Positions 146 through 18,288 of a stretch of DNA of 20,122 bases are shown here, in pieces (the first letter of the stretch is position 1; each line of letters opens with the position of its first letter). This DNA comes from a virus. The translations under genes and the position numbers were made by a program. Location of the stretch: IMG/VR virus record IMGVR_UViG_3300025478_000027, positions 1 to 20,122 of that record. One strand, given 5' to 3'. The notes beneath the pieces were generated by a model that saw nothing but the letters and a program-made list of their open reading frames with translations, was not told where the DNA came from and ran no database searches.

Positions 146-3100
146 CTACTGCACAACCTTAAATTGATTTAATATTGGTAATGACTTAGTAAACTTACGT
201 CCCCAGTCTTCTGTCGTGTATATATCAGATATTTTACTGATAGTCGGTCCAGTAACCCCTAGTAGCGGATTATTACCCCACTCACCCTGTTTCTGAACAT
301 CTAGGAATACCTGCGCAATACTATACAGTCCTGAACGCTCCATAGCATCTGCGAAGTCACGCTCAGGTGGCTCTTCATCTGCCATAGCATAACGGATCGT
401 ATCCCTAAGTAATAGCCCCATTAACCCGAGAGGTATAGTAGTCGCCACCGTAAGTATTGGTAGCATAGCCCTTGCATAAGCCCCACCGTTCGCGTGCTGT
501 TTCGCCTCCCGCCCAACTTGGTTCATTATAGTAAGTTGGAACGAATACATAAACTGTTTGAGATGCCACAATAACGTCCACTTAGGATCCGATGCCCATA
601 TTGGCCGTTGTGTAGCATCAGGGCGCATAACAGCCTCATCTACAAAGCGGGTCATAGCCTCAATAATAAGTTTCTCGTTAACATTAGCTGCTGATGGGCG
701 GGGTTTGCGCTTACCATTCTTAACCCAAGTATCAACCGCTTCTTTAGTAAGTCCTAATGCCTCAAGGTTCGCTTTATCCCCTGAAGCCGCCCACTTGAGC
801 ATAGACTGCTCGCCCATTGATAGTGCCATTAACCGTGAGAATCTAGTGAACGCCTGCATACCGTTATACTTAAATAGCTTATCGTTCCATTTATGCGCTT
901 TCTCGTACATAAAGCCGTGCTCATACTGCTCTTGGACTGCGTGCTGCACATTCTTCTCTGTAACAATCCCCCACCACTCAGCAGTTTCTTGCAGTAATTT
1001 AGGATCACTACGCATAGCTTTAAACGCGTCCTGCATACCTTTCCACGAATCTTTAAGTCCTGCATCCCCGCGTATAGCTGGTCCCACGAGATCAGGTAAC
1101 TGTGAAGTAAGTGCTAACGGGAGGATTAACCAGTTAACGAGTGCTAATGCCCAACCCTGTGTTTTATACAATGAGTCGTTCATATCAAGACCTAGGCGGC
1201 CTTCAAGCGCAAGCATAGCTTTACTGAACATATCCACCTGCTTTTCCGTAGCTCCCATAACTTTCATCGAACGTACATGAGAGTGAATAGATGCTGATGG
1301 GTCCCACTGTGTACCGAAGTCAGTATGCACATACCCACCGAAACGCTCATTCCACTCTAATCCTTTAGCGACACCGTGATTATATTCTGTGAATATATCA
1401 CCTAGTGAACTTCGAATAAGCCCATGCTTCAGTAGTACATCTGTAGGTATATTTAATATCCTATGCTTATCCCGTTTAATACTTGCTGGAGTCTGTGAGA
1501 ACTCCTCTGCATCTCTAAATAATGCGTCACTTCCGCGTGTTGATAATTTATCGAACATATCTTCTTTATCAACCTTCGGAGTATACTCATCGAAGAGCTT
1601 AAACATAAGGTCTTTATTCTTAGCGACTACGATCTCGTCCCATATATGCGGGATATAGTTCTCCCGTTTCTGAATACGATCAGCCGGCTTCATACCCATT
1701 TTTGTCTGTTCGGCTAAGATATTATCAAACATTTCATCGAAAACGGCTTTAACCTTAACACCCTTAGCTGATAATTTATCACCATTAATAATAGCATCTA
1801 ATATCTGCTTCTGTTCAGTAGCAATATCCCTATCTTTCATACCTTTAAATATACGGTCGAACTGCGTCTGATATTCACCTGTACGGTTCTGCAACGACTC
1901 CCGGAAAACCTGAGTCTTCCCAGATATATTCTCCGTAACTTTAGTACGTGTCTTATGATAAAACTCAGATATAACTCTGTCAGCTCCGGGAACCTTAAAT
2001 GATTCTAGCATCCACGGAAGTGTCCATAAAGTCTTACGGGTTACGTCCCAAATGGGAGATCCCACTCCCCTGATACTCCGTCCGATTGCGGCGAAGAGGG
2101 CTTTCTCCCTACCGGGGCTGACGGCATTTTCGTAATGCGCGGGGTTTTTGCTATTACCGCTTTGTTTCTTCGTTGCCACTCCGGGTCCGACGCTACCCGC
2201 CGCCCCGTGTGTCCTAGTCCCTGTGCCACTTCTAGCTCGCTTAATTTTTGCATAACTGCCCTCTATATATTTAGTAATTGCAGGATACTCACCCCGCTTT
2301 TCGTGATGTAACAGGTAAGCCGCCGCGTACTGCGCGTGCAGCTCTAAAAGATACGCGCCCATCATATCGGGTTTAACGATTACACGGTCATTTTTAATAT
2401 CCGCGAGTTTTCCGTTATTGTATGGATGTGCGAAAAAAGATGTGTATGGAGCTAACCCTTTAGAAGCCTCATACGCCTTAACGAACTTTTTATACTCTAC
2501 TTCAACCGATGCAGGAGTAAAGTCCATATCATAACCATCGGCTGCGTGATGAATTGCGTGCCCTAACTCGTGCGCAAAAACATGAGCCATTTGCACCTTG
2601 TCCATCTTTTTGTCTTTCTCTGAGTACGCAATAACAATATATTCCCCCGGCATGTATGAGCCTAAAGTTGTTTCACCATCCTGCTGATCGGCTATCCATA
2701 CACCATTTTTTAGGTTGTTAAACACCTCTTTAGGTAAACCATTCCCTTCAAAAAAGTCGAGCGCAGCATTGAAAAGTGCTATCTCCTCACCTTTTGGAGC
2801 TCTAAAGTTTTTATAGCTATTACGCATATCTGCATCTGGTTTTATAGCTCCTTGAGATATAACTCGTGGAGAAGCAGTTTTTTCTGTATTTGGGATAGTA
2901 AGATTTATATTAGTTGGAACATATTCTTTTAGTTCTCTCTCAAAAACTGCTGATCCGTTATCGCCTACATATTGGTCAACTCGTATTGAACTGTGTTTAC
3001 TGAACTCAGCCTTAGCTGCATCTAATTCACGTTTACTTCCATTAAGTCTTATCGCCAGTTCATTAAGCGCATCGACTATAGGTGTATCGTGCATCTTACC

Positions 3101-6100
3101 CTTCTTATCACGAATTGGTATATTCCCATCAAGTACACCTAAATTAGCCGCTTCTTTTAGCTGCTTATTCATCGAGTCTATTACATCATCTATAATGTTA
3201 TAGTTAGTCGATCTATCGAGGAACGCCTCATTAAGTGTTTGCCCAATATCTGGCATAGCGATAGGTGAAGCTTCAGCCGCATCATGTAAATTCAAGAACG
3301 GAGTTGCGGCTACATGTTTATTTAACGCTTCAACACTATTAGCCCCATCATACGAGTGCGTAAGTACAGGCATCGTAGCTGACCCAGGGTCAATAATACT
3401 TTTATGCCTAATACCTGCGCTTATACTCTTTTGCCCATTTACTGCCATATGAATCTGAACAGGTGGAGTATTACTCGCTATTTTCTTAGATTTCCCGAAG
3501 ATTATCTCGCCAGTACCACCCTTCATACGAGGGAGCATAGGTTCTAAACTCTTCTCTATCTCCGCACGCTCGGCTTTAGTAATAAGGTCTTTACCCTTAA
3601 ACGCTGCATCTCTAGCCTTAGCATATAAAGCTGCCTGTATAGACATAGCATCTGTAACTACTTTGTAGAAACTTCTAATTTCTGTGAGCTCTTTCTCTAG
3701 TATAGTAGCTATAGCACCTACCTCTGTATCATAGGACATAACCTCCACATCTATCGGTGTGGTTACGTCGCCTTTAGCCTCAGCCGCCTCATATAGCGCC
3801 ATCTCAACACTATTAAACATACTACTATATAGTAACGTCGTTTTAACTGACTTTTTACTAGCCCCGTACATATATATGGTAAACGGTGACTTCAATAGCT
3901 TACGCCAAGGGGCATTAACGTGCCCTTTGGTTGTTACTGGCCCAAAGAGCTTAATTAGTTCCGGTATCTCTGAGGCAGGTATTTTTTTAGCTAGTGTCTG
4001 GTAAGCATCGGTTGTCTGCTTATCCTGTGCATACAAGCTGCTATTTTTATGCTTACTACCGGGGACAAACACTCCAATCTTACCTAGCCAATCAGTCCAT
4101 TTAGTAATAAGCGGGCTGTTCATAAGTCCGATAGCAAACCCATTAGTTTTACCATCCATTTCTAGTGATATATTTGAAGTGAATATCGCCTCAGAGTTAT
4201 ACTTCTGAAGTTCAATATACGCCTTAAACCCATCGTAATCTACAGCGTCAAACTCAACTAAGAACTCTTTAGCGTGCGCAGTTGATACTGGCGCTTTATT
4301 AGCCTCTATCCATGCCAATGCCTTTTTGAATGTAGCTACATGCACGCTTCTTTTAGTATTTTCATCATTACCAAGGTGGTGCGAAATAGCTAAAACATAC
4401 TGAGAGTAATTGCTTGAAGCTGACTTGATCTTAGGATTAACCCTAAACGACTGCTTTGCAGGACGTATAAATAATCTATGGAGTTTACTCCCCTGAGGAG
4501 TAATGATCCCCTGCATACCCATACGGATATTAGCCCACGCTTCATTCATGATAAAGAATGGATCCCATACTTTATCCCGCTGGGTTAGCGTGGAGAACTC
4601 CATCATATTATCCAAGTCCCGCTTAGTAGCTGCTAACTTAGCCCTTTCATCTTCTCTACGACCTTCGTGGATTTTATCAAAATCAACGTTCGTTCCTGAT
4701 AACTCTAGTAGGAAATCTTCAAACCCCTTTGTATCACGAAGATTCTTAAAGCTATCGTCGTATACCCACTTAACATGCGAATACTTAAATAACGCATTTA
4801 ACTGTTCTTTCTGTACTTTGAAATCCACCCCAAACTTAGCTTTAATAAATTTCTTAATTTGTTTAAAAGTAGGTTCCGCAAATGACGGCTCTTCAAATAC
4901 ATTATTTACACCGACTAATATATCGTATACAACATTATTAGACTTAGCTATGTCCATCGCAACTTGTACGTTTTTATGAGGTTTTTCAAGCCCCTGTTTA
5001 TCGACAGTATGTATTACTTTAATAAAGTTAGTTTTAGACGCGCCCTTCTCTGACACTCCCGAAAATTTAAACTTCGTCCGCTCCGCAGCAGTCATACCCT
5101 GTATTTTAACAAGTGACATATCAGTTATAACACCCAGCGCAAACGTACCTAACGCCGTGTTCATACGCGCATCCATATCATGGATAGTATCATCAACCGC
5201 TTTAATACCTAACGCACTTTTAATCTGCCCCCCTAGCTCATTAGCAGCTACAGTCATTGGTATACCCATAGACTTAACTTTCTTATACTGAGCGTTAGTA
5301 GGTCGGGCATCCATAAGCATAATATTCTTAACCTGATCTTTACTCAGATTAAGCGTGCCACTACTACGCTGCGCAACCCACCGATGGGCAACTACTGATA
5401 TAGTAGCTAAATCCGCATCGCTATACATAGCAAAACCATCTCGCATCTGCTGTATAAGTAGTGATGGATCATTTAATATATCGTCAGGGTATATCTTTTT
5501 ACGTTGTGGAACTCTGCCTATTTTAATGGCCGCAGCACTAAAGATACCCTTAAACTTATTAATACTAGCCGTCAGTTTACCAATATCAGTAGCTTCTTCA
5601 AGTTTACGAAGCTGATCTTTATCAGTAGTTTCTAATGTTTCGGGTAATACCTTTTTATCATCACGGGTAAAGTTATCCTCAAATGTAGTACCCTTTAAGC
5701 CTTTACCTTGATTGCCAGACGGTATAACTTCTATCGGGGTACCCTCTTTAGCCTCTACTACCAGCGGCTTCTTCTTGTCCCCCTTAATATATGCGATAAC
5801 CGTATCAGCACTAATACCATATTGTTTAGCGAATGATGCAACATCTGGTTTAAACGGTAAGTCATCAATGACCGTTTGCCATTCAGCTTTCTGTTGCTTA
5901 GCCTCTACTACCAGCGGCTTCTTCTTGTCCCCCTTAATATATGCGATAACCGTATCAGCACTAATACCATATTGTTTAGCGAATGCTGCAACATCTGGTT
6001 TAAACGGTAAGTCATCAATGACCGTTTGCCATTCAGCTTTCTGTTGCTTAGGCTTAGGTGCCACCGCACCAATACTTTTAGCATACGCCTTAATCATTGC

Positions 6101-6730
6101 AGTTTTACTTGCTCCGTACTCAGTAACGGCATCCTCAACACTCATCCCATTATCTAATGCTACTTGCCATTCAGCTTTCTGTTGCTTAGGCGCTGGTTTA
6201 GGCTTAGGCGCTGGTTTAGGCGCTGGTTTAGGCTCTTTCGCTGCTGCTACATCAGCTTCTAACTTCGCGGTATATTGGGTATAAGCCTCGGGGGCTCTAA
6301 CTTTCATCGCTGCTAGTAGATGCTTTAGTTCATCATACTGCATTTGCATTATACGCTTCTGCAGGTCCGATAGATCCTGCTGGTTACCACTCAATAGAGC
6401 AACAGCCGCACCCCACCGGTGATGAACTTCTTTAAAGAAGTAATGATTAGACACCTCAGTTTTGTTACTCCACGGCACTCCATCAAAAGCTTCCGCCACT
6501 TCCGCAGCACTAGGGTGTATAACTTCACCTTTATCGGTGTATGTAGTTTTAGGTCGCCACTGTAACCACTTGTCTTCTACTTGAGGATTAGTATCTTTTT
6601 CTATTTCAGGAAATCCATTAGATGCACTTTCTTTTACCCGCGCCTTAGACCTCTCCTGCGCCATATCAGTATAACGCGTTTTAATAGCCTCTACTAATTG
6701 GGCACGGTTAAGATTTGAGCAACTAGCCAT
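146..6730 (-). CDS. Giant virion protein: N4 vRNAP-like RNA polymerase, zinc-protease motif and HTH-like repeats
   Basis: A 2194-residue protein, probably packed in the capsid and ejected with the DNA. Start ATG 6730 overlaps the previous stop as TAATG; the GTG nine bases upstream is less likely. Visible layout: an N-terminal helical part; a Lys-Pro-Ala linker (about residues 164-181); three repeats of about 50 residues with helix-turn-helix-like sequence (181-328); a region with single-subunit RNA polymerase motifs (about 700-1180: R736, DGxxxG at D859, RxxxKxxxxxxxYG at R943-G956, then D1128 or D1150); a zinc-protease motif HELGH at 1387-1391; a Gly/Ser/Thr-rich linker (about 1493-1564); and a C-terminal region with hydrophobic segments near 1860 and 2095 that resembles the ends of phage large polyvalent proteins. 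N4 virion RNA polymerase is larger (about 3500 residues) but is similarly central-core with big flanks. Existence of the gene is certain; the polymerase call is by motif and spacing. Confidence 0.85.
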   Translation of the reverse strand: MASCSNLNRAQLVEAIKTRYTDMAQERSKARVKESASNGFPEIEKDTNPQVEDKWLQWRPKTTYTDKGEVIHPSAAEVAEAFDGVPWSNKTEVSNHYFFKEVHHRWGAAVALLSGNQQDLSDLQKRIMQMQYDELKHLLAAMKVRAPEAYTQYTAKLEADVAAAKEPKPAPKPAPKPKPAPKQQKAEWQVALDNGMSVEDAVTEYGASKTAMIKAYAKSIGAVAPKPKQQKAEWQTVIDDLPFKPDVAAFAKQYGISADTVIAYIKGDKKKPLVVEAKQQKAEWQTVIDDLPFKPDVASFAKQYGISADTVIAYIKGDKKKPLVVEAKEGTPIEVIPSGNQGKGLKGTTFEDNFTRDDKKVLPETLETTDKDQLRKLEEATDIGKLTASINKFKGIFSAAAIKIGRVPQRKKIYPDDILNDPSLLIQQMRDGFAMYSDADLATISVVAHRWVAQRSSGTLNLSKDQVKNIMLMDARPTNAQYKKVKSMGIPMTVAANELGGQIKSALGIKAVDDTIHDMDARMNTALGTFALGVITDMSLVKIQGMTAAERTKFKFSGVSEKGASKTNFIKVIHTVDKQGLEKPHKNVQVAMDIAKSNNVVYDILVGVNNVFEEPSFAEPTFKQIKKFIKAKFGVDFKVQKEQLNALFKYSHVKWVYDDSFKNLRDTKGFEDFLLELSGTNVDFDKIHEGRREDERAKLAATKRDLDNMMEFSTLTQRDKVWDPFFIMNEAWANIRMGMQGIITPQGSKLHRLFIRPAKQSFRVNPKIKSASSNYSQYVLAISHHLGNDENTKRSVHVATFKKALAWIEANKAPVSTAHAKEFLVEFDAVDYDGFKAYIELQKYNSEAIFTSNISLEMDGKTNGFAIGLMNSPLITKWTDWLGKIGVFVPGSKHKNSSLYAQDKQTTDAYQTLAKKIPASEIPELIKLFGPVTTKGHVNAPWRKLLKSPFTIYMYGASKKSVKTTLLYSSMFNSVEMALYEAAEAKGDVTTPIDVEVMSYDTEVGAIATILEKELTEIRSFYKVVTDAMSIQAALYAKARDAAFKGKDLITKAERAEIEKSLEPMLPRMKGGTGEIIFGKSKKIASNTPPVQIHMAVNGQKSISAGIRHKSIIDPGSATMPVLTHSYDGANSVEALNKHVAATPFLNLHDAAEASPIAMPDIGQTLNEAFLDRSTNYNIIDDVIDSMNKQLKEAANLGVLDGNIPIRDKKGKMHDTPIVDALNELAIRLNGSKRELDAAKAEFSKHSSIRVDQYVGDNGSAVFERELKEYVPTNINLTIPNTEKTASPRVISQGAIKPDADMRNSYKNFRAPKGEEIALFNAALDFFEGNGLPKEVFNNLKNGVWIADQQDGETTLGSYMPGEYIVIAYSEKDKKMDKVQMAHVFAHELGHAIHHAADGYDMDFTPASVEVEYKKFVKAYEASKGLAPYTSFFAHPYNNGKLADIKNDRVIVKPDMMGAYLLELHAQYAAAYLLHHEKRGEYPAITKYIEGSYAKIKRARSGTGTRTHGAAGSVGPGVATKKQSGNSKNPAHYENAVSPGREKALFAAIGRSIRGVGSPIWDVTRKTLWTLPWMLESFKVPGADRVISEFYHKTRTKVTENISGKTQVFRESLQNRTGEYQTQFDRIFKGMKDRDIATEQKQILDAIINGDKLSAKGVKVKAVFDEMFDNILAEQTKMGMKPADRIQKRENYIPHIWDEIVVAKNKDLMFKLFDEYTPKVDKEDMFDKLSTRGSDALFRDAEEFSQTPASIKRDKHRILNIPTDVLLKHGLIRSSLGDIFTEYNHGVAKGLEWNERFGGYVHTDFGTQWDPSASIHSHVRSMKVMGATEKQVDMFSKAMLALEGRLGLDMNDSLYKTQGWALALVNWLILPLALTSQLPDLVGPAIRGDAGLKDSWKGMQDAFKAMRSDPKLLQETAEWWGIVTEKNVQHAVQEQYEHGFMYEKAHKWNDKLFKYNGMQAFTRFSRLMALSMGEQSMLKWAASGDKANLEALGLTKEAVDTWVKNGKRKPRPSAANVNEKLIIEAMTRFVDEAVMRPDATQRPIWASDPKWTLLWHLKQFMYSFQLTIMNQVGREAKQHANGGAYARAMLPILTVATTIPLGLMGLLLRDTIRYAMADEEPPERDFADAMERSGLYSIAQVFLDVQKQGEWGNNPLLGVTGPTISKISDIYTTEDWGRKFTKSLPILNQFKVVQ
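2320..2640 (-). other. Zinc metallopeptidase-like motif region
   Basis: Within the giant protein, residues about 1364-1470. VFAHELGHAIHH contains the zinc-binding HExxH (H1387, E1388, H1391). The metzincin continuation HExxHxxGxxH is not present, so a glutamate third ligand is more likely; E1463 in ELHAQYAAAY is a candidate, although it lies 76 residues downstream, which is long for that class. A protease on an ejected protein could mature virion proteins, cut itself between domains, or act in the host envelope. The motif is seen directly; the activity is inferred. Confidence 0.6.
3190..4640 (-). other. Candidate single-subunit (N4 virion type) RNA polymerase core
   Basis: Within the giant protein, about residues 700-1180. 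Motif B is exact: R943-xxx-K947-xxxxxxx-Y955-G956 (RKLLKSPFTIYMYGAS), as T7 RNA polymerase R627, K631, Y639, G640. Motif A is D859 in MDGKTNG, matching the T7 pattern DGxxxG at D537. For motif C the candidates are D1128 in THSYDGANS or D1150 in NLHDA. A preceding segment, NIRMGMQGIITPQGSKLHR, recalls the region after the TxxGR motif of N4-type enzymes; R736 is kept but the Thr and Gly are not. Spacing supports it: R736 to D859 is 123 residues (T7 112), D859 to R943 is 84 (T7 90), Y955 to D1128 is 173 (T7 173). This would transcribe early phage genes right after ejection, as in N4. Confidence 0.65.
5748..6190 (-). repeat. Three tandem HTH-like repeats, two from a 150-bp duplication
   Basis: The stretches 5748-5897 and 5898-6047 are 150-bp direct tandem copies that I find to differ at one base only (5836 A versus 5986 C, giving Ser versus Ala). 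A diverged third copy occupies about 6048-6190 and shares the KQQKAEWQ opening. Each repeat encodes roughly 50 residues: AEWQ, then a helix, then a helix-turn-helix-like stretch such as AKQYGISADTVIAYIKG, then a Lys/Pro tail. The length is an exact multiple of three, so the frame is kept. Near-identity suggests a recent duplication. Confidence 0.9.
6189..6240 (-). repeat. Lys-Pro-Ala linker repeat
   Basis: Short degenerate DNA repeats (units like GGCGCTGGTTTA and GGCTTA on the plus strand) encode a basic, extended Lys-Pro-Ala linker immediately before the HTH-like repeats of the giant protein. Such linkers are flexible and may let the N-terminus thread or move independently of the enzymatic core. 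Confidence 0.8.
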
Positions 6731-8487
6731 TATGTACACGCCCCCATCTGCTTAGCTACATTATTTAGATCAGTCATACTAATATTTTTCCCGTTTTTAA
6801 ACCAACTATCGGACTTTAGTTTACCATCCTTACGGAATATATTAATAGGTATTTCGTCTCGAACCTCTTCTTGCCTAGTGGCCGTCTCGCCTACAGGGGG
6901 TACATCTGAATCCCAAACAGGTGGAGGAGTGACATCTGCCTGTACATTGTCTTCTATTCCTTGCGCCCGCTTGAGCCCCGCAGCATCAACTACTTCAACT
7001 CGGACGTTATCTAATTTATCTATATTACCTATATCCACCTGCAGTGTTTCAGGGGTAGTCGGGACTATAGTCACCGTATCCCCTGTATCACGATCATATG
7101 CGACAATACCAGCGGCATTACTATTTGTATCTAAAGTTTCGTCTTCTGCGGTACGCCGCGCCTGCATAGCTCCTACTGCATCAACACCTGTCGATATCCC
7201 CATAGCCGCTGCCCCAGCAGCAACAGTCGTACCACCACCCGCCGCAGCTCCAGCAACAGCTGCTTGGTTACGTTCACTAATAGCCTCTGGGCTCATCATA
7301 TCATAGTCAGGGTTATGGTGCTTCTTGTTAAGTTGACCTATAGCCGTTTGTGCGTACTCAGTTGCACCCTCAGCCACTGACGTTACTCCCGCCGCCCCCA
7401 TAAGCTGTTTAAGTCGCCCTTTAATACCCCTAGACGTACTACCAGTAAGTTTCGCTAACTTACCTATAGCAATGCCTAACGGGGCAAACTCTAGAGCTGC
7501 ACCCGGTACGCCAGCTATAAGCGACGAACCCGCAGCATCATCGGCACTAACGCCCTCAGCTAATAACTCATTGAAATATTCGCCCGACTGCACGCCATAC
7601 GCACCCGCAGCACCACCAGCTATGAAAGCGTTCGTACCACTAATAAACGCTTTACCCACAGCGGCTCTACCCGCTAAACCTACTACACCGCCACTAAGCA
7701 TAACCGCGAGGTTCGGTAGGTTCTCCACCATCTTCTCAATGATAAAGCCACCTGTATCAGCGAGGCTATGAACATCATCAGTAGTCGCGAACTTAGGGGG
7801 GTTTCTAGCAGCTTCAACTAGGTTCTGTACACGTCCCTCATCCATCCACGCTTCAGCAGATTCCAATCCAAACTTATTAGATACAGCCTGCCCAAAACCA
7901 TATAACATACCCTGAGTTTGGTCTACTCCTCTACGAAGCGCCCCGCCTACTAAAGGTTGTTTATATGGTTTTCTAACGTTACTACGTGTTATAGCACCGT
8001 GTAAACCTGCGGCTCTATTAGCCTCTCCGACCTTAACAAATTCAGATAGCGTATCATATTCTGGAGTACCTTCTATCGCTGATTGTCTATTAAACTCGCC
8101 TCTTGCTATATCATAGGCGTTAAACTTCGTGACATCGTGTCGTGCAACATCACCAACACCTTTAGCCACCATAACAGCATTAAGGTTACGCCCACTTGCA
8201 TCTCTGGCAACTCCTAGTGGTCTACCGTAGTAACCGTATCCATCCTGCTCAATATGGTCTAATTTTGATAATGTCTCAGTTGCTATCCTATTTTCAATCT
8301 CTGACCCACGGGTTCCATAAATAGACCCACCTTCCGAAGCAATATCTCCACTAACGTGGCCTTCTTCTTTGGCATCAAACCCAAGAAGCCTGTACCGTTG
8401 TATAGTATCCGCATCTTCCATACCGCGAGCATCAGTTACATCAGATGCTCCGGCTATTAACCGTGCGACGGTATCGTCAAGACTCAT
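6730..8487 (-). CDS. Ejected internal virion protein with N-terminal SNase-like nuclease domain
   Basis: A 585-residue protein. Residues about 15-115 read as a staphylococcal (micrococcal) nuclease-like fold: DADT (25-28), YRLLGFDAKE (32-41), then YGRPLGVA (87-94) and GRNLNAVMVAKGVG (99-112). R33, D38, E41 and R89 line up with S. aureus nuclease R35, D40, E43 and R87, so the catalytic Arg-Glu-Arg set is present; D27 fits the calcium-binding D21. The central part (about 240-440) is rich in Ala and Gly with several hydrophobic segments, typical of ejection proteins that enter membranes; the tail is acidic then basic. ATG 8487 overlaps the upstream stop by four bases (ATGA), and its own stop shares TAATG with the giant gene, so the three ejection genes are translationally coupled. 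Likely role: packaged, ejected, and able to cut nucleic acid in the host. Confidence 0.75.
   Translation of the reverse strand: MSLDDTVARLIAGASDVTDARGMEDADTIQRYRLLGFDAKEEGHVSGDIASEGGSIYGTRGSEIENRIATETLSKLDHIEQDGYGYYGRPLGVARDASGRNLNAVMVAKGVGDVARHDVTKFNAYDIARGEFNRQSAIEGTPEYDTLSEFVKVGEANRAAGLHGAITRSNVRKPYKQPLVGGALRRGVDQTQGMLYGFGQAVSNKFGLESAEAWMDEGRVQNLVEAARNPPKFATTDDVHSLADTGGFIIEKMVENLPNLAVMLSGGVVGLAGRAAVGKAFISGTNAFIAGGAAGAYGVQSGEYFNELLAEGVSADDAAGSSLIAGVPGAALEFAPLGIAIGKLAKLTGSTSRGIKGRLKQLMGAAGVTSVAEGATEYAQTAIGQLNKKHHNPDYDMMSPEAISERNQAAVAGAAAGGGTTVAAGAAAMGISTGVDAVGAMQARRTAEDETLDTNSNAAGIVAYDRDTGDTVTIVPTTPETLQVDIGNIDKLDNVRVEVVDAAGLKRAQGIEDNVQADVTPPPVWDSDVPPVGETATRQEEVRDEIPINIFRKDGKLKSDSWFKNGKNISMTDLNNVAKQMGACT
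8143..8445 (-). other. Staphylococcal nuclease-like domain
   Basis: Residues 15-115 of the 585-residue internal protein. The family pattern is DGDT, then a strand RLxGIDxPE, then YGRxLg, then a Gly plus Asn-rich strand ending in GLA. Here these read DADT, RLLGFDAKE, YGRPLGVA and LNAVMVAKGVG. R33 to E41 is 8 residues, as in S. aureus nuclease R35 to E43; E41 to R89 is 48 against 44. The hairpin between DADT and R33 is shorter than in the reference enzyme, which is the main point of doubt. Confidence 0.72.
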
Positions 8488-10157
8488 TGCGGTTTCATCG
8501 GCTCAGACGTATCTTTCTCACCTATAATACGTGCGATAAGTTTGTCTAGCGTAATACCCGCATTATCGGCTTCTTCCCGCAATAACGCGACATCAAACTG
8601 TTTCTTACTTCCATCTTTAGTAAGTAGTGCGATTGTACTCTGTGACTCAGAAAACTTAGCTAGGAATTTAGATATCAGCATATTACCTGTACTGAGATTA
8701 GCTGCTCTGTCTTCAGACATTGGGTTGTACCAACTAGACTGACTCCCTTGGAAATCATTAGATCTATTCATACCTATAATCTTCCCTGCGAGTGCGAAAT
8801 CTGCTGGTGTCATTTCATCCATACTACGCCTTCCAAAAACTACTGCTATCGCCGCGGGTGATTGTGATAAGGTGTTATATATATCAGACTTAGCCTTATC
8901 GGTATCAAACTTTTTAACCCCCTTAGCACTTTTAGTAAAGTACCCTCGTGCCCCCCCATAATAGTCTTCCAGCCCAGGGACCACCATATCTAATGTGGAG
9001 CTAACCCCCTTCATTATATCGGATTTACTTTTAACCTTACTAGCCAAATCCTTAGCTGACATAGACAGTGTTCCGGTTTCAATGAAATTGGATAACGAAT
9101 CCTTCCCGAGAATACCACCTTCTTGTAGTCTTCGTACAGCGGCTAACTTACGTGCGTTCCAAGCCTTAGTAGCCGTAGAAAGTACCTTAGTGGCCTCAGT
9201 CTCAGTCATTTCAATACCAGCCGCGTTCTTCCACATACGCTCAGTAGGCTCACCTGCTGGCGACGGAATATCCCCAGAGGGGTCTTTTTTATGTTCATTA
9301 ACTTTAGCTTTCTTCTCATCATCTGAGAGCGCGCTACTGCCTAGATATACCGCTCCGCCAACCGCTGCAGTTTTACTTGATGTAAGTACATTTTTAACTG
9401 TAGGCGCAATCGTCCACTTCCCGTTAGCCGTCTGGATAACTTCTTGTGAACCCGCACGATAGTTACTCGCATTTAATGAACGCTGCGCTGCGGCCTCAGT
9501 ATCAAAGTTTCTGCGGTTTGCTGGTATAGTTCTTCTACGGCCAAAAGCCCCTGGATCCCCATACTCACGGCGCGTTCTCCCTAACCCACGGCGTGTAGCA
9601 ACCGTAGCACGTTTACTTAGTTCATCTGCAGCTTTTACGACCTGTTTACCTTTCTTATATACGCCATAGAGCTTACCCCCTGCACTAAATGATCTTAATA
9701 CTGCAGATGCTACCCAACCAACTCCGGGAACAAACATAGCAGCAGTAGCTGCTGCATCTAATGGGTTTTCGGTAATCCAATCCCCCACCTTAGTCATCAC
9801 CCCCGGATCTTTAACTATATCAGCTTCTATCTTTTGGGTATCTCCCAGCTTAGACTGAGTTTCTATATCCTCAACCGTAACAGCGGGTGGTTTAACCGTA
9901 ACAGCGGGTGGTTTAACCGTAACAGCGGGTGGTTTAACTCTCGATAGACCTAACGACTGTTGCGTAGGTCGGTTACTTTGGAAAGCTTCAATATCGCCTA
10001 CCGCTTGTTCAGCTAAGAACTTTTCACGCTCACTCTTCTGGATGGCCTCAGCTCTTGCCAGCTCATTAGTAGCACGTTGTTGATTCTGTGTATCATACAC
10101 ACTACGCTGCTGGTTACCGTAACTAATAGACCTAGCTAGATTACCTAATGAACTCAT
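8484..10157 (-). CDS. Internal virion (ejection) protein, 557 residues
   Basis: Family not recognised by name. The N-terminus (1-65) is Gln/Ala/Arg-rich and likely helical. Residues about 74-95 hold three copies of VKPPAVT from a perfect 21-bp repeat. A Gly/Ala-rich hydrophobic stretch, AAATAAMFVPGVGWVASAVL, lies at about residues 135-155 and could insert in a membrane. A strongly basic Arg-rich part follows (about 185-215), then a long mostly helical C-terminal half. Position between the 282-residue protein and the nuclease-bearing protein, and the composition, fit the internal proteins of podoviruses that form the ejection channel (compare T7 gp14-gp16 or P22 gp7, gp16, gp20). ATG 10157 shares TAATG with the previous stop and has a very strong ribosome binding site. 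The stop TGA overlaps the next start. Confidence 0.7.
   Translation of the reverse strand: MSSLGNLARSISYGNQQRSVYDTQNQQRATNELARAEAIQKSEREKFLAEQAVGDIEAFQSNRPTQQSLGLSRVKPPAVTVKPPAVTVKPPAVTVEDIETQSKLGDTQKIEADIVKDPGVMTKVGDWITENPLDAAATAAMFVPGVGWVASAVLRSFSAGGKLYGVYKKGKQVVKAADELSKRATVATRRGLGRTRREYGDPGAFGRRRTIPANRRNFDTEAAAQRSLNASNYRAGSQEVIQTANGKWTIAPTVKNVLTSSKTAAVGGAVYLGSSALSDDEKKAKVNEHKKDPSGDIPSPAGEPTERMWKNAAGIEMTETEATKVLSTATKAWNARKLAAVRRLQEGGILGKDSLSNFIETGTLSMSAKDLASKVKSKSDIMKGVSSTLDMVVPGLEDYYGGARGYFTKSAKGVKKFDTDKAKSDIYNTLSQSPAAIAVVFGRRSMDEMTPADFALAGKIIGMNRSNDFQGSQSSWYNPMSEDRAANLSTGNMLISKFLAKFSESQSTIALLTKDGSKKQFDVALLREEADNAGITLDKLIARIIGEKDTSEPMKPQ
9873..9935 (-). repeat. Perfect 21-bp triple tandem repeat in a Pro-rich linker
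   Basis: Three exact copies of a 21-bp unit (9873-9893, 9894-9914, 9915-9935) encode repeated VKPPAVT heptads in the internal virion protein. The first four bases of a further copy (9936-9938) then break off. The frame is kept, so copy number can vary without killing the gene. Perfect identity suggests recent slippage expansion. Confidence 0.92.
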
Positions 10158-11005
10158 TACGCATCCTCCTTGTTAACATTAGCTCCTGCCATATTTATGA
10201 TAGCCTTTTCCAATAAAGTATTACGTGTTGATTCGTTTGCGTTACGTATGTTTGCTTGCTCATAAGCATTTTTATCATAAGCATCTTGGTTATACCTAGA
10301 TTCAAAACGTTGCCCTAACCCTGCGATAGCGTTCTGCGTAGCTTGAGCATCTCGGCTATATCGGTTAGCATCCTGACCATATCCTTGCCCAAGTGCTCTC
10401 TGACTAGTAGCCATATCGCCATATGCTGAACCAACTCCAGTGGTATTACTTAGCGCATTACCATAGTTAACATCGCCAGTAGCCACATAGGATCTTGCTT
10501 TATTTCTAATATCTGCACCCTCTTTAGCACCCCTAGTTCTTTCACGAGTAATAGCTGCTGCTTTACCTAGTGCTTGACCAGATACATTATGGTATCCCGA
10601 TCTAGCTAGTTTAGTAGGATCTATACCCATGCCAAGACTTTGACGTTGCTGAGATTGAGCTGCAGTATCATACTGCTGACCTATGGTAGAAGCTACCTCA
10701 CCTAACCGTGCTGTACTATTGCCTGATAGCTCACCAGTAGCTGTAACATCTGCTAAACGTCCTTCTTGTTGTCGTTTAGCCTCAGCAATAGATGCGTCTC
10801 TAGCCTTAATCTCATAATCTAAACGCTTCTGAGATATGGCATTAGCTTCACGCATAGCTGCTGCAGACTCTCTCTGTGCTGCTGCTGCTCTTTTACGATC
10901 ACTACGTCCAGCAAAATGACCTAGGAGTGATGATCCTGCTGTAATAGCTGCAGAACCAAGAGCACTAGTGCCTCCTCTACTATTCTCGTACCAAGGTGTA
11001 GACAT
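10157..11005 (-). CDS. Internal virion protein, coiled-coil, 282 residues
   Basis: A Gly/Ala/Arg/Gln-rich protein. The N-terminus has a short hydrophobic stretch, SAAITAGSSLLGHFAG (about 17-32), followed by a long charged helix (about 33-90) predicted by eye to form a coiled coil, then Gln/Ser/Gly-rich low-complexity helices. Size, composition and place just before the larger ejection proteins resemble the small internal proteins of podoviruses such as T7 gp14 or P22 gp7, which enter the host envelope first. ATG 11005 has a good ribosome binding site (GGAGAA) in a 36-base gap, one of the few non-overlapping junctions here. The stop overlaps the next start as TAATG. Confidence 0.7.
   Translation of the reverse strand: MSTPWYENSRGGTSALGSAAITAGSSLLGHFAGRSDRKRAAAAQRESAAAMREANAISQKRLDYEIKARDASIAEAKRQQEGRLADVTATGELSGNSTARLGEVASTIGQQYDTAAQSQQRQSLGMGIDPTKLARSGYHNVSGQALGKAAAITRERTRGAKEGADIRNKARSYVATGDVNYGNALSNTTGVGSAYGDMATSQRALGQGYGQDANRYSRDAQATQNAIAGLGQRFESRYNQDAYDKNAYEQANIRNANESTRNTLLEKAIINMAGANVNKEDA
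10163..10171 (-). promoter_or_regulatory. Very strong ribosome binding site
   Basis: AAGGAGGAT lies five bases before ATG 10157 and inside the last codons of the upstream gene. It is the best Shine-Dalgarno match in the window, so the 557-residue protein can be initiated independently of translational coupling. Confidence 0.75.
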
Positions 11006-12390: not shown

Positions 12391-13229
12391 TAGCTAAGAT
12401 CCCCTATCTTCACCCTTAGGGTGCCGGCTGAGTCATATACTTTTAAAGTACTATTGGTCATCTCCATTCTAGCACCAGAAGTTGCACTCTTAACGTTAAG
12501 CGTCCCTCTAAATGTTCCAGAGTTAAACTCAGCACTACCATCTTTACCTATATTCCACCCAGTTACACCCGCAAAGTAGTTATGGCTCTGGACACTGGTC
12601 ATAGCCGCTTTAGTAAAACTAGCCTCATATGCTGTAATCTCTGTAGCAATACCATTCTGCCACGTCCCAGAATCAGCCCCTGCATTAAATGCTCCGCTAA
12701 CCCCAGCACTAGCCGCTGGATACGGATCACTATTAGCACCAGCAGTTGTCCTTAATCTAACCCAATAGTAATATGTACCAGAAGTTGGTGGGACATCAGC
12801 CATAAGCTTACCAGCTTCGACCGCTATCATCGTACACCCATCCAAACCAGTAAAATCACAGCTGCTGCTAGTACTTCTCCATATCTCAGTGACATCATGC
12901 CCAGCATATGATGCCCAATCCCAAGTAAGAAATATCTGGTCCGTAGAAGGGGTAGTAGCGAGTGAGGTAGGTGCCGAAGGTACAGCTGGAGTATAACTAC
13001 TAGCTGCCGATCCATATCCCGTACTACTATCCTCTGGGGCTGATACAGCACTACCAGCACTAGCAACGATAACGCCAGAACTAAACAACTCTCTAAGCGT
13101 TACAGCTCTATCAAGCTTATCCCCTCTTAACCCGAGCCTTACTTCAACTGCATTCTTTACGGCTGAGAGGAACCCATAGAGTGTACCTTGAGGTGGTTCA
13201 GGGATGGCCGGTATCTTAGTCTCGGCCAT
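12390..13229 (-). CDS. Fibronectin type III-bearing tail fibre-like protein, 279 residues
   Basis: Residues about 84-180 fit a fibronectin type III domain: PSAPTSLATTPSTDQIFLTW opens it, YYYWVRLRT is the typical late strand, and a Pro/Ala linker ends it. The N-terminus (about 14-55) is of the kind found at the attachment end of phage fibre proteins (LDRAVTLRELFSSG). The C-terminus, with GWNIGKDGSAEFNSGTFRG, resembles the end of tail-tip proteins of the lambda J and DUF1983 type. Together these suggest a short fibre or tip adapter. The gene starts within TAATG of the nozzle-like gene and ends the same way with the next. Confidence 0.6.
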   Translation of the reverse strand: MAETKIPAIPEPPQGTLYGFLSAVKNAVEVRLGLRGDKLDRAVTLRELFSSGVIVASAGSAVSAPEDSSTGYGSAASSYTPAVPSAPTSLATTPSTDQIFLTWDWASYAGHDVTEIWRSTSSSCDFTGLDGCTMIAVEAGKLMADVPPTSGTYYYWVRLRTTAGANSDPYPAASAGVSGAFNAGADSGTWQNGIATEITAYEASFTKAAMTSVQSHNYFAGVTGWNIGKDGSAEFNSGTFRGTLNVKSATSGARMEMTNSTLKVYDSAGTLRVKIGDLS

Positions 13230-14926
13230 TACAACGACCCTAGATCTTTTACTGTATTACCCAAAGTTATAGAATCAACTGTAGTAGTACCTGATACTTG
13301 TATTTCGTACTTATAAACTCTTGGGTAACTAGGCAACCTAACTGGACTATTACTTGTAATAGACACTGCTGTCTGCTCAACCCCATCTAAAGTCAGTGTA
13401 AGTACTACAGGTTCAGCAACTGTATGATGCCCTATAACTTGTACTGCTGAAAAGGCTAAAGGTTTATCTAACATTAACTCAGCAGATTTCCATGTAAACG
13501 TACCCGCGGTACCTTGTGCCCACTTAGTAATACTCGTACCCTGCGATATATACAGTGAATCCTCTTCTAATATATTGTGCCCCGCCGTAGCCGTATGAGT
13601 AAACGTAGTAAAGTCATTGCTGCTCGGGGCATATATAAACCCGCCAGTACTGTGGAAACCTACATACTTATCTTCCCAGTAATAGGCGTGGATTCCGCTA
13701 GGTGTAAGACTCTGCCAGTAGTCACGATCTATAATATCTCCTGTAACTAACTTAGCTCCAAAACTCTTAACTTGAACAATACCATCTGGTGCTGCATATA
13801 GAACACTCTCACCCATGTCCACCATACTACGACTAGACACACAAGCCTGATTAACCTCTAGCTTAGTTTGCGTAAGTGAGTTAGGTGATACACCAGTAAC
13901 TAGGTAAGGGTTGCCCTTAGTGGATACCACAAGTGTCTGTCCAACTGCAGCTAATCCCACTATGTCATAGTCTATAGTGATCCGATACTCTTCAGGCCAA
14001 GCATGTGGGTAGTAGGCTTCACTAAAACAAATCTCTTTACCTGTATACCCTGCCATAATGCCGTTAGCCATCATAGTAAGACCTTTGAGCGCACCTGTAG
14101 GGTAGGCCCAGTCATACTGGTATGTAGTTGATGAAACCGCTACTGTGTTGAATGGAGGTGGTGGAAGCCAGTTAGTGCTAGTAATAGACGCGGCTAGATT
14201 CTCTGTAAGCGTACCGTCTGTTATAACGTTGCCCGGAGTAGTCTCCGTCACATACTGATATGCTGCTCCAGTCGTACCTGTAGCTACACGGTATATACGC
14301 ACCTTCGTTATGTTAGGTGTGGGTGCGCCCGTAGGAGTTGTAATGCTTGGCGTACTAGGAACTGTAACGGTCACTTCTTGATCTACATAATATATATCAA
14401 TAAGTCCAGATGGCACACTAGGAGGACCTTCTTCATACTGGTCCGTAACGTAAGTACACACATATGCAGTAGTAATTTTATCTGAATCAGCTGGATCAGT
14501 ATGCTCATCCTTTGTACTTGGCGTACCAATACCTGGTGCGCTAACCGGAGGTGGAACCCCAAGACGGCGTGTAGTATTAGGGAACGGTGCTACTCCAGTA
14601 TTTAGTGAGGCATATGTCATCTCTGGAACTGCCCCACCACTAAGGTAAGTTCTGTTCTCAGTAGTCCCTGGTACTGCCCCTTGTACTACGCTATGCTCGT
14701 CGTTATCCTCAAACCATAAAGTACCAGCCCCATTAGGAAACCCATATAAACTTTTAGCAACAGCTGAAACTGTGCTACTCCCTGATGCTAACGGGGATTT
14801 TAACGGGTTTATTTTACCTGAGGTAAGGTCTATATTTGAGGCTATCTGTGCATACCCGCCCTGCAACTCTTTAGGATCTAACTTTGGGGATATACCTTTA
14901 AATAATTTAAATGATACCGAGGCCAT
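13229..14926 (-). CDS. Tail nozzle-like structural protein, 565 residues
   Basis: The N-terminus, FKGISPKLDPKELQGGYAQI followed by ASNIDLTSGKINPL, is the pattern of podovirus nozzle or tail tubular protein B-type proteins: F-x-G-(I/M)-x-P-x-(L)-x-P then 'A-x-N-(I)-x-L-x-x-G-x-(L/I)-x-P'. A Pro/Thr-rich middle has a fibronectin-like feel (TTAYVCTYVTDQYEEGPPS at about residues 152-170), followed by a blade-like repeat region (GLAAVGQTLVVST, ESVLYAAPDGIVQV), as in a beta-propeller, and a beta-rich end. It follows two adaptor-like genes, the expected order for a short-tail tube. The start shares TAATG with the upstream stop. Confidence 0.65.
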   Translation of the reverse strand: MASVSFKLFKGISPKLDPKELQGGYAQIASNIDLTSGKINPLKSPLASGSSTVSAVAKSLYGFPNGAGTLWFEDNDEHSVVQGAVPGTTENRTYLSGGAVPEMTYASLNTGVAPFPNTTRRLGVPPPVSAPGIGTPSTKDEHTDPADSDKITTAYVCTYVTDQYEEGPPSVPSGLIDIYYVDQEVTVTVPSTPSITTPTGAPTPNITKVRIYRVATGTTGAAYQYVTETTPGNVITDGTLTENLAASITSTNWLPPPPFNTVAVSSTTYQYDWAYPTGALKGLTMMANGIMAGYTGKEICFSEAYYPHAWPEEYRITIDYDIVGLAAVGQTLVVSTKGNPYLVTGVSPNSLTQTKLEVNQACVSSRSMVDMGESVLYAAPDGIVQVKSFGAKLVTGDIIDRDYWQSLTPSGIHAYYWEDKYVGFHSTGGFIYAPSSNDFTTFTHTATAGHNILEEDSLYISQGTSITKWAQGTAGTFTWKSAELMLDKPLAFSAVQVIGHHTVAEPVVLTLTLDGVEQTAVSITSNSPVRLPSYPRVYKYEIQVSGTTTVDSITLGNTVKDLGSL

Positions 14927-15537
14927 TAGATGCCCCCGTATTGAACTGTGTGCGTTGTCCTAACGCCGCCTGTCTCACTTTTAGTTGTAATTACGTCTAT
15001 AAGATCACGGTACTCATCCCTATGATATCCCGCTAAAGACCCATCAGTCCACGGCTTATTAGCCATAGCAAATAGCCTCATAAGTGCCCCATGCCTGAAA
15101 GCATCAGAATACTCATTAAATATATAATCTTCAATCCGTTTAGCAGTCGTAGACGGTTTAAGCACTACCAGCATATCTAGTGCCTTACCCGCTACCGGAG
15201 TAGGTGAAAGTCTTATTACCTTAGGGTTAATCATCCCATAATACTGGGTAGCCCCAGATGTATAATTAATCAGCTTCTCATAAGGTTTTCCCACGAGGAT
15301 AGTGCCACCGTACTCAACTCTGATAATCTCAGATACGACCGCCCCTGATGGAGGCTCCATATCATATTCACTATTAGTCGTGGTTATTATAGTATCCTGC
15401 TCGAACTTCCAGCAACGAGTCCGCTCACAGAAATCTATCGCTATATTGCGAACTTCACGGATAGCTAGAGCATCAACTACCTCTGGAATATCTATTCGTA
15501 GTTCATCGGCTAAAGTTTCAAATGCTACCTGTGCCAT
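14926..15537 (-). CDS. Adaptor / tail tubular A-like protein, 203 residues
   Basis: The protein has the layout of phage head-to-tail adaptors: an N-terminal helical part with IREVRNIAIDFCERTRCW, a beta middle (YDMEPPSGAVVSEIIRVEY, then IRLSPTPVAGKALDMLVVL), and a C-terminal helical part (RHGALMRLFAMANKPW, then a Tyr/Arg/Asp helix). In this class the 'GAL...L..M..KPW' stretch is characteristic. It probably forms the ring between portal and nozzle. Its ATG follows directly on the stop of the previous adaptor gene (TAAATG). The stop overlaps the next start. Confidence 0.65.
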   Translation of the reverse strand: MAQVAFETLADELRIDIPEVVDALAIREVRNIAIDFCERTRCWKFEQDTIITTTNSEYDMEPPSGAVVSEIIRVEYGGTILVGKPYEKLINYTSGATQYYGMINPKVIRLSPTPVAGKALDMLVVLKPSTTAKRIEDYIFNEYSDAFRHGALMRLFAMANKPWTDGSLAGYHRDEYRDLIDVITTKSETGGVRTTHTVQYGGI

Positions 15538-16158
15538 TTACGATGCACCTCTGGCGGCTATTCCCGCATTATAATTATCTAAATAAACTTTAGCATTAGT
15601 TGTACTGCCAAAATCTGTATCCTTTGCAAACGCTCTATACACCATATAATCTGTCATAAGTGGTAAGAACTCATCTGGGAGCTCTAAAGTATCGCCAGTA
15701 GCAGATACCTCAATAGGTAAAGTCGAATATTTTAGCTCAAGCCTAGTTGTCGTATTTACATTTGGGTATACATAGAAAACATCTGGGGATACTAAATCAT
15801 ACACATATCTTTCAGCTGTTGCTTTAGAATTAACCGCTGCTGTATGCCAACTTGTACTAATAATCCCGAGTTCGTCCTCTGTACTTAATAGCGTGACCCT
15901 ATTATCTGTATCATGCGTATTACGCATAACTTTAAGAAGCCTATGGAAGTTACTTATTCCTGATAAACTCTGCTCGCTACTACTGGCTACCGGAGTAAAC
16001 GAAGCTATAGTTGTATTAGCAGTAGGGATCTGAGACACTATATCACGCTGTGCATCACTGAGCCATCGTAGCATCTCATTATCTGTCCAATGCTTAACGC
16101 TACCTGTATCATTAAGCAGGTCTCGTACACGACTGATAACTGCGCTAGCTAAGGCCAT
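15538..16158 (-). CDS. Phage adaptor protein (DUF6682-like), 206 residues
   Basis: The N-terminus, VISRVRDLLNDTGSVKHWTD with the following NEMLRWLSDAQRDIV, is the DUF6682-type opening; the C-terminus has LELPDEFLPLMTDYMVYRAF. These are short-tail adaptor proteins between portal and tail. Start chosen at ATG 16158 (MALASAVIS), which shares TAATG with the upstream stop; the upstream in-frame TTG at 16173 would add five residues and is less likely. The downstream gene is also adaptor-like, so this phage seems to stack two related ring proteins. Confidence 0.7.
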   Translation of the reverse strand: MALASAVISRVRDLLNDTGSVKHWTDNEMLRWLSDAQRDIVSQIPTANTTIASFTPVASSSEQSLSGISNFHRLLKVMRNTHDTDNRVTLLSTEDELGIISTSWHTAAVNSKATAERYVYDLVSPDVFYVYPNVNTTTRLELKYSTLPIEVSATGDTLELPDEFLPLMTDYMVYRAFAKDTDFGSTTNAKVYLDNYNAGIAARGAS

Positions 16159-16511
16159 TACATAGCTTCCCAAGCCGCATCACGCTGCGCAGTAGTTATA
16201 TCCTTACCATAATACTCTTTTAATGTATCAAGCCTAGGCAAGCCCCTAGCTGTCAGCGGGTTACTCTCCTTATCCATCATATCTTTAAGCGCTGCTATAA
16301 GCTCCGCGCTAGCCCCATCAATGGGTTCATCTACTACCGCTGTAATTTGTACAGGGGTAGGTTCAGGACGGGCTCCTATGAGCTCCGCTCCTGCTGCAAG
16401 TGCCGCATCAACAAGACTATCGTCAATATCAATAGGTCGCCTAGAGGGTATATATCCTCTTTCTACACCGTTGGTAAATCTAATACCTAATCTTGAAAAT
16501 AATAATGCCAT
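16158..16511 (-). CDS. Small head-completion-like protein, 117 residues
   Basis: The start is ATG 16511 (MALLFSRLGIRF), with AAGGTG seven bases before it. A longer reading frame to 16580 would pass through the terminator hairpin and gives an unlikely N-terminus, so it is rejected. The C-terminal RGLPRLDTLKEYYGKDIT with a following helix resembles a small helical module found in phage head-completion proteins ('G-x-P-x-(V/L)-x-x-L-x-x-x-x-G-x-x-(V/I)-(S/T)'). The middle is Glu/Pro/Ala-rich. It lies just after the terminator, first in the connector transcript. Role inferred from place. Confidence 0.6.
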   Translation of the reverse strand: MALLFSRLGIRFTNGVERGYIPSRRPIDIDDSLVDAALAAGAELIGARPEPTPVQITAVVDEPIDGASAELIAALKDMMDKESNPLTARGLPRLDTLKEYYGKDITTAQRDAAWEAM

Positions 16512-16524
16512 TATGCCACACCTT

Positions 16525-16562
16525 AAAAAATAGGGACAACACCAGAAAAGACCAGTGTTGTC
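16525..16562 (-). terminator. Rho-independent terminator after the capsid module
   Basis: On the minus strand an 8-bp perfect stem (GACAACAC with GTGTTGTC, at 16555-16562 and 16535-16542) extends by two G-U pairs and one G-C, closes on a six-base loop, and is followed three bases later by TATTTTTT (T-run 16530-16525). The wobble pairs form only in the minus-strand RNA, matching the transcription direction. It lies between the decoration-like gene and the next gene, so it likely limits read-through, as T-phi does after T7 gene 10. Confidence 0.82.
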
Positions 16563-16574
16563 GGTTTTCCACAT

Positions 16575-16622
16575 CACCAATGAGGAAACTTGGTGGCCCC
16601 CGCTAAACCAATAGGGAGGGCC
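16575..16622 (-). other. Two further small hairpins upstream of the terminator
   Basis: Between the decoration-like gene stop and the terminator stand CACCAA/TTGGTG (16575-16580 with 16590-16595, perfect 6 bp, nine-base loop) and a GC-rich stem GGCCCTC against GGGGGCC (16616-16622 with 16595-16601). They overlap by one base and might protect the capsid messenger 3' end or be processing sites. Function inferred only. Confidence 0.5.
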
Positions 16623-16631
16623 ATTAGGGTT

Positions 16632-17012: not shown

Positions 17013-17024
17013 GATAGTTCTCCA

Positions 17025-18125
17025 TTAAATAGCAGTATCGACTGCGATTAGACCGAAGTCTTCAACGCCAGAATCGATGATTGAATGGAACTTAGGTTTC
17101 AACATACCCATAATCTTAGAGGTACTAATACCTTTCTGATTATTATAGTCGAAATCTTTCTCGTCCCAAGAAGGTTTGCCAAGGTCAGCCATAGCGAGAG
17201 CCTGAGCTCCACACATAAGAACTCGTTGACCCTTAACGCCCCAAGCACCTTCACCAGTATCAGCTGATGCTGCTGGAGTTAGTACGTGGCTATATTCATG
17301 AATCCACATACCGTCTACTAGCACAGAAGTTGAACCAGCAAAGAGCTCATTCTTAGATCCACGAACACCAGCGTTACGAACGTTAGCTAGGTAGTCTGAA
17401 TCAAGTTTAAGTTTAGCCATACCCTGTGGAGACATAAAGACGTGGAAAACTTCCTCGCCGCCGCCTGCACGAATACCGCGGATAAACTTATCTTTAGCCT
17501 TAGCTTTCATCTCGACAAGCATAGCATAACTAGGAGTATCAGCTGCGCCTACTGCAGTAACATCGCCAGTTGAAAGTCCATTAGTCGCATCCCACTGGAA
17601 GTGACGATTAGCTGTAGGTGCGCTTACATCTGAAGCGAACTCAAGACTAGCAAGACTAGACCCTGAACGTGCTACGCCACTAGTAGTATAATTAAAACCA
17701 ACGCCTGACATAGTCAAGAATGCCATCTGATCCATACGATCTGACAACCAATATGCTAATGCATCACGTGAGTTCTCACGGAAGTTAACGATAGTTTTCT
17801 GATCAGCCATACGACCTGTAGTACGATTCGCGTGACGGATTTGGTCAATGCGAATTACTTTATCGTATGCCTTGATCTGCTCTTCGTTACCTTCAAGTGT
17901 ATTATCACCTACAGTACCGTCGCCTTCAAGATCAGTTAAAAGTGTGATGACCGCTTGGTCTCCACGCTCAGTTTTAGTAAGCTCACTAATACGCTGAACC
18001 ATAGCATTAGAGCCTGATCCTGCAAATTTATTAATGAAAGAGTTATTACGTGCATATTTCCATAAGTCACGTGACCATACTTTCTTCTGTTCAGAAGTTA
18101 GTGCGGCAAAGTTAGTAAAAGCCAT
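17025..18125 (-). CDS. Major capsid protein, N4 gp56 family, 366 residues
   Basis: The sequence matches the N4 gp56-like major capsid family in style: an N-terminal helical arm (KKVWSRDLWKYARNNSFINK), then RGDQAVITLLTDLEGDGTVG, an E-loop-like stretch with YDKVIRIDQIRHANRTTGRM, and a long helix (NSRDALAYWLSDRMDQMAFL). Length is a little under N4 gp56 (about 400). The gene is preceded by a 209-base gap with promoter-like sequences and a strong ribosome binding site (AGGAGA, 18133-18138) and is followed by the decoration-like gene. It assembles the HK97-fold shell with the portal and scaffold encoded just upstream. Confidence 0.85.
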   Translation of the reverse strand: MAFTNFAALTSEQKKVWSRDLWKYARNNSFINKFAGSGSNAMVQRISELTKTERGDQAVITLLTDLEGDGTVGDNTLEGNEEQIKAYDKVIRIDQIRHANRTTGRMADQKTIVNFRENSRDALAYWLSDRMDQMAFLTMSGVGFNYTTSGVARSGSSLASLEFASDVSAPTANRHFQWDATNGLSTGDVTAVGAADTPSYAMLVEMKAKAKDKFIRGIRAGGGEEVFHVFMSPQGMAKLKLDSDYLANVRNAGVRGSKNELFAGSTSVLVDGMWIHEYSHVLTPAASADTGEGAWGVKGQRVLMCGAQALAMADLGKPSWDEKDFDYNNQKGISTSKIMGMLKPKFHSIIDSGVEDFGLIAVDTAI

Positions 18126-18132
18126 TTTGCTT

Positions 18133-18138
18133 TCTCCT
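18133..18138 (-). promoter_or_regulatory. Strong ribosome binding site of the capsid gene
   Basis: AGGAGA lies seven bases before ATG 18125 in an AT-rich, probably unstructured leader, consistent with very high translation of the capsid protein. Confidence 0.75.
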
Positions 18139-18199
18139 ATAAAGTTAAAATAAAAAACTAAGGATGGCGGCTCCTATTAACTGTAAATTTTACGCCCAA

Positions 18200-18227
18200 A
18201 ATATATTTTACTTGCCCAGTATAACAA
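18200..18227 (-). promoter_or_regulatory. Candidate sigma70-type promoter, proximal
   Basis: On the minus strand TTGTTA (18222-18227) and TATATT (18200-18205) are separated by 16 bases, 4/6 and 5/6 matches to the consensus, about 75 bases before the capsid start. AT-rich DNA gives such matches by chance, so this is a weak call supported mainly by position. Confidence 0.35.
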
Positions 18228-18228
18228 G

Positions 18229-18244: not shown

Positions 18245-18288
18245 AATCTAAAGAGGCTCGACTCTCCGTGCTTGCGAGGTGTTTAATA

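Follow-up and report, generated by a model that had tools for sequence, protein, structure and literature searches.

Virion RNA polymerases (vRNAPs) of the N4 type are represented by gp50 of phage N4 (PDB 2PO4, 3C3L and 9PNR; PMC4496689, PMC12633501), a protein of 3500 aa in which an N-terminal domain, the RNA polymerase and the C1 and C2 domains form one chain. In the recently described N4 structure, C1 is the zincin-like domain, the 1125 residues after it form C2, which has a new fold, and the C-terminal domain represses (autoinhibits) the polymerase (PMC12633501). N4-like RNA polymerases are almost always fused to zincin-like domains, and in the survey of Iyer et al. 2017 the vRNAPs of this kind were confined to N4-like phages (PMC5512222). 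Zheng et al. 2023 used the vRNAP as a hallmark, discarded homologues shorter than 2500 aa and listed 287 contigs in which the vRNAP was the only hallmark (PMC10654107). The closest precedents for a short, split vRNAP are found in the Alteromonas phages V19 and R22Y, whose proteins reach only 2082-2083 aa (PMC11705849). Immediately upstream of its vRNAP gene, V19 has a second large gene; this phage is described as a schitovirus and has N4-type portal and capsid genes (35% identity to gp59 and 25% to gp56). A different kind of giant protein occurs in the podophages KPP25 and phiA008, where an HExxH motif stands upstream of the C-terminus and no polymerase is found in the giant or in the rest of the record.

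The locus described here lies in a window of 20,122 nucleotides, which is positions 1 to 20,122 of the IMG/VR virus record IMGVR_UViG_3300025478_000027; all features located in it below are on the minus strand. A sister contig, L189, is 99.4% identical across window positions 13069-20122, and it adds the small and large terminase subunits (TerS, TerL), the whole portal gene and a leftward replication module (PolA, primase/helicase, exonuclease). ORF1 (146..6730) encodes a giant virion protein of 2194 aa from an ATG at 6730, while an alternative GTG start 9 nt upstream would give 2197 aa. Its gene is the end of the virion module, as is that of gp50 in N4. Residues ~417-1200 of ORF1 (3131..5482) are an N4-type single-subunit RNA polymerase. 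In all likelihood, ORF1 is a catalytically competent vRNAP that a KPP25/phiA008-type short-tailed phage carries within its giant ejected protein. A preceding sequence-only reading had proposed an N4 vRNAP-like core in this 2194-residue protein, and this is borne out by PHROG, HMM, hhalign and AlphaFold2 results. The interval then assigned to the core, 3190-4640, does hold the palm and fingers, but the whole homologous domain extends over 3131-5482.

Detection of the polymerase depends on profiles. The PHROGs family phrog_2206, 'virion RNA polymerase', matches ORF1 with E 1.4e-60 over residues 420-965 and a second stretch. An HMM of six Schitoviridae vRNAPs, from which the window was left out, scores 181 bits in two collinear stretches (residues 447-975 and 1008-1191), and hhalign of ORF1 against a vRNAP profile without the window gives a probability of 100, with E 5.9e-57 over 740 columns. 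A further match, from a PDB profile search, does not serve as independent evidence, since N4 was part of the query. A Pfam search left the polymerase region without any match, and phmmer, run with the single ORF1 sequence against the PDB, returned none, which indicates that ORF1 is very divergent. Identity of its polymerase to the sampled vRNAPs does not exceed 24% (about 16-20% to gp50). The domain is very distant from those of V19 and R22Y and sits on a long branch of the tree.

The AlphaFold2 model of residues 417-1200 (pLDDT 85.1, pTM 0.85) has N4 vRNAP structures as all of its best PDB matches (Foldseek E 2e-22). In VIA, it aligns with N4 mini-vRNAP over 723 residues (Z 25.6, 3.9 A). Thus, the profile and structure comparison that the sequence-only reading had suggested came out in its favour, with the model following N4 mini-vRNAP end to end. 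After the N4 vRNAP chains, the next fold matches in Foldseek and VIA are the T7 and mitochondrial RNA polymerases. By profiles and by modelled fold, the domain is a member of the N4-type polymerase family. Moreover, ORF1 has one cysteine in its 2194 aa; nearly all sampled vRNAPs have zero, and gp50 itself is almost devoid of this residue.

The RxxxKxxxxxxxYG motif of ORF1 is exact, and R736, D859, R943, K947, Y955, G956, D1128 and D1150, counted from the ATG at 6730, all occupy the positions first reported for them. In 20,000 shuffles of ORF1, this motif alone appeared in 1.6%; 2 shuffles also had DGxx[NSGT]G upstream of it, and none had HD[ASTE] downstream in addition. Motif B is common to A-family DNA polymerases and single-subunit RNA polymerases, and PolA also has RxxxKxxxxxxxYG, so that this shared element could in principle mark an A-family DNA polymerase. 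The chance of such an identity is next to nil, and the fold and profile ranking refutes it: the top fold matches are all RNA polymerases, motif A has the vRNAP form ExDGxTNG, and the virus encodes PolA separately, in L189.

Each catalytic motif can be followed residue by residue. In the TxxGR motif only the Arg is kept (WANIR), as had been noticed before; this R736 (4523..4525) is the equivalent of R424 of N4 mini-vRNAP. BLAST pairs it with N4 R1421 (= R424), RMGMQGIITPQGSKLHR vs RMQMLGKYNPQSAKLVR, and by eye the two stretches are gapless up to the PQ motif. The motif A catalytic Asp is D859 (4154..4156; EMDGKTNG), corresponding to N4 D559. Motif B extends from R943 to Y955 (3866..3904), reads RKLLKSPFTIYMY and is followed by G956; it matches N4 K670/Y678, with K947 corresponding to K670 and R943 to the Arg that precedes it. 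For the motif C Asp, two candidates had been named, and D1150 (3281..3283; LHDA) is the one that stands. It aligns with N4 D1948, which is D951 of mini-vRNAP, though the motif is HDA in ORF1 and FDG in N4. According to the alignment, D1128 (3347..3349) belongs to the PVLTHSYDG block and is not the motif C residue; its distance to D1150, 22 residues, is the same as in the GTGDG...FDG spacing of N4. The T7-like spacing of 173 in the sequence-only reading had been measured to D1128, the wrong Asp, and has to be given up, as Y955 and D1150 are 195 residues apart.

In the alignment of 52 vRNAPs, R736, D859, R943, K947 and D1150 are among the 13 invariant columns, and Y955 (N4 Y678) is nearly invariant. 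Equivalents of N4 R424, D559, K670, Y678 and D951 are all present in ORF1, and it follows from the alignments that D859 and D1150 should pair in the active site. Catalytic competence is thus a well-supported prediction from conserved residues and the model. The long branch and the degenerate TxxGR motif might instead suggest a polymerase remnant, retained as a structural domain and no longer catalytic; with every catalytic residue kept and the fold complete, this is very unlikely. ORF1 therefore shares both the polymerase fold and the catalytic residues of gp50.

Promoter recognition is another matter. Conservation of the N4 promoter residues W129, D901 and R904 (PMC4496689) was not seen by eye in ORF1, which suggests that its promoter specificity probably differs from that of N4. 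The upstream sequence available from L189, where the early region is incomplete, yielded no hairpin promoter of the N4 type. This contig contains two early cassettes with a nearly identical 53-nt leader (3065-3117 and 3659-3711) before a small ORF, and a 62-nt terminator-like hairpin (2682-2743 and 3149-3210) after the small ORF of each. The leader was considered as a vRNAP promoter; its folding is no better than that of shuffles. Additionally, five AT-rich 21-nt iterons with TTGATnATCAA-type palindromes lie at L189 3822-3949, between the terminase and replication modules, and they are a possible operator or origin.

Downstream of the polymerase, ORF1 contains HELGH at residues 1387-1391 (2558..2572), a zincin-like metallopeptidase motif in the same place as HExxH in the N4-like vRNAPs inspected and in N4 domain C1. 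The motif and weak Pfam scores (Peptidase_M78, E 0.01) support a putative zincin-like domain. ORF1 lacks the 1125-residue C2 and has in its place a 655-aa C-terminal ejection-protein domain of another family (residues 1540-2194; 149..2113), which is common to the KPP25 and phiA008 giants and to about 90 giants from IMG/VR and genomes, and not to N4. The likeness to the KPP25 and phiA008 proteins covers the C-terminal 400-650 aa at 26-32% identity. Thus, the full gp50 architecture (NTD-RNAP-C1-C2 in one chain) is not found in ORF1.

The AlphaFold2 model of this C-terminal domain (pLDDT 81.9) had no significant match in Foldseek. Its three best VIA matches, 8vb2 (Z 7.8), 7eyb (Z 6.7) and 9vvp (Z 6.0), are all T7-type core/ejectosome proteins of the gp16 kind; they fall below the safe VIA level and have no sequence match, so kinship with such proteins is a lead only. 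N4 C2 was absent among the VIA rows for this model, though the two domains may still be related. In the N-terminal 400 residues of ORF1, HTH-like segments are repeated, and two of them constitute a 150-bp tandem duplication (99%; 5748..6051). The duplication is apparently recent and stands beside a Pro-Lys-Ala rich stretch.

The domain that precedes the polymerase in N4 is found in a neighbouring gene. ORF2 (6730..8487; 585 aa) matches phrog_6958 (E 2.4e-10) and phrog_2206 (E 1.4e-7), the latter at profile positions 211-476, which implies that the homologue of the gp50 N-terminal domain, part of a single chain in N4, is a separate gene here. The arrangement recalls the large upstream gene of V19. 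In phiA008 and L099, ORF2-like and C-terminal parts are joined in one protein, so that one phiA008/KPP25-type gene stands against two in this virus. A possible degenerate SNase segment (E 0.11) occurs at ORF2 residues 33-119, DADTIQRYRLLGFDAKE; at the N-terminus of the phiA008 giant, the SNase match is significant. ORF3 (8484..10157; 557 aa) and ORF4 (10157..11005; 282 aa) are putative ejection proteins by position, with no family match. ORF3 contains three exact 21-bp tandem repeats coding KPPAVTV (window 9873-9938). Further along are an internal virion protein (13229..14926; phrog_511, E 1.6e-137) and two SU10-type adaptor proteins (14926..16173; Pfam PF24175, E 2.9e-11 and 9.7e-27). Searches of the window for Rfam families and tRNAs found none. 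In the distantly related podophage phiARM81mr (L093 13151-14437), a retron-type reverse transcriptase is annotated within the virion module.

The genes for the shell and for packaging reveal what virus carries the polymerase. The major capsid protein (MCP; 17025..18125) belongs to phrog_334 (E 2.4e-86) and is 55% identical to that of KPP25 and 43% to that of phiA008. The window holds the C-terminal part of a phrog_156 portal (19238..20122), which is whole in L189 (E 4e-116). Among the TerL proteins compared, those of phiA008 (44%) and KPP25 (38%) are nearest to that of L189. It had been noticed from the letters that the neighbouring genes do not look like those of a standard N4 relative, and this is correct, as capsid, portal and terminase are KPP25/phiA008-type; the portal, then called P22-like, is better named after this type as well. 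By MCP, TerL and giant-protein C-terminus, the virus is a KPP25/phiA008-type podophage, with the same capsid and terminase families and a virion that, outside the polymerase, is not of the N4 type.

An N4-type polymerase and a preserved order of polymerase, zincin and C-terminus would also be expected if the virus simply belonged, as a divergent member, to the N4 family (Schitoviridae). However, the N4 portal (gp59) is phrog_1216 (E 2.8e-271) and the N4 MCP (gp56) is phrog_1357, a family not found in L189 by a search with N4 as the positive control. The phrog_1216 portal occurs in 28 of the 32 vRNAP-bearing records tested, and none of the 32 has a strong phrog_334 match. Since phrog_156 and phrog_334 reverse this pattern, the virus is not a schitovirus by portal and MCP markers. 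With TerL nearest to phiA008 and KPP25, and with the ORF1-type C-terminus in none of 80 vRNAP loci, a place in Schitoviridae is very improbable. The remaining four of the 32 records (L042, L059, L080 and L081) are without both tested portal families, and therefore the virus of the window may not be the sole exception. Three of these contigs, L080, L081 and L059 (38-70 kb), have neither of the tested portals nor the N4 MCP family, and they are possible further vRNAP carriers outside Schitoviridae.

The reverse search, for polymerases among phages with the ORF1-type C-terminus, was negative throughout. The polymerase HMM found none in about 90 giants with this C-terminus or in 43 whole records, mostly of phages that have it, while the same query detects the window. 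With hhalign, a dozen such giants showed no polymerase, the probability being below 1% for KPP25 and phiA008. No polymerase was found in the relatives with the nearest MCP either, many of which are fragments. A degenerate polymerase in the relatives' giants was thus rejected by hhalign and the whole-record HMM, with positive controls.

Peptide-pattern scans of IMG/VR based on ORF1 alone found no relatives. Since no other IMG/VR contig that covers ORF1 was found, the fusion rests on one assembly, a 20-kb metagenomic fragment. This, together with relatives that have the same C-terminus and no polymerase, is what a chimera of metagenomic assembly could produce. Such an artefact is nonetheless highly improbable: ORF1 is a single open frame of 6.6 kb in which both joins must be in frame, the polymerase segment resembles its neighbours in GC content (0.41-0.44) and codon usage, and at no more than 24% identity to the sampled vRNAPs, it has no known genome as donor. 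The compositional fit and the low identity make both a misassembly with a known phage and a recent import unlikely.

The reading of ORF1 as an active vRNAP of a KPP25/phiA008-type phage suggests the following course of infection. Judging from gene position and homology, ORF1 would most likely be packaged in the head with ORF2-ORF4. As in N4, it would be ejected at infection, threaded through the tail and then refolded in the cytoplasm, where the polymerase domain may transcribe the phage early genes without the host RNA polymerase. Relative to N4, the protein appears to be rebuilt: the N-terminal (membrane/ejection) domain would have been split off as ORF2, the order of polymerase and zincin-like domain kept, and the C-terminal ejection domain that belongs to the phage lineage put in the place of C2. 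We infer the direction of this swap. It is probable that an N4-type vRNAP crossed into an unrelated podophage lineage, with the polymerase-zincin cassette coming in and the autoinhibitory C2 giving way to the lineage's own ejection domain. A limit of 2500 aa such as that of Zheng et al. would have excluded ORF1, which has 2194 aa, and some of their 287 vRNAP-only contigs may be similar cases.

The new element is an N4-type polymerase, until now known almost exclusively from N4 and its relatives, in a phage whose capsid, portal and terminase are of the KPP25/phiA008 type. The natural absence of C2 makes ORF1 a test case for the C-terminal autoinhibition of the N4 vRNAP. If the domain exchange is true, ejection proteins would carry the N4-type vRNAP as a mobile cargo module, and it would not be the hallmark of one family. 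If vRNAPs do move between families, early transcription independent of the host may be more widespread than has been assumed.
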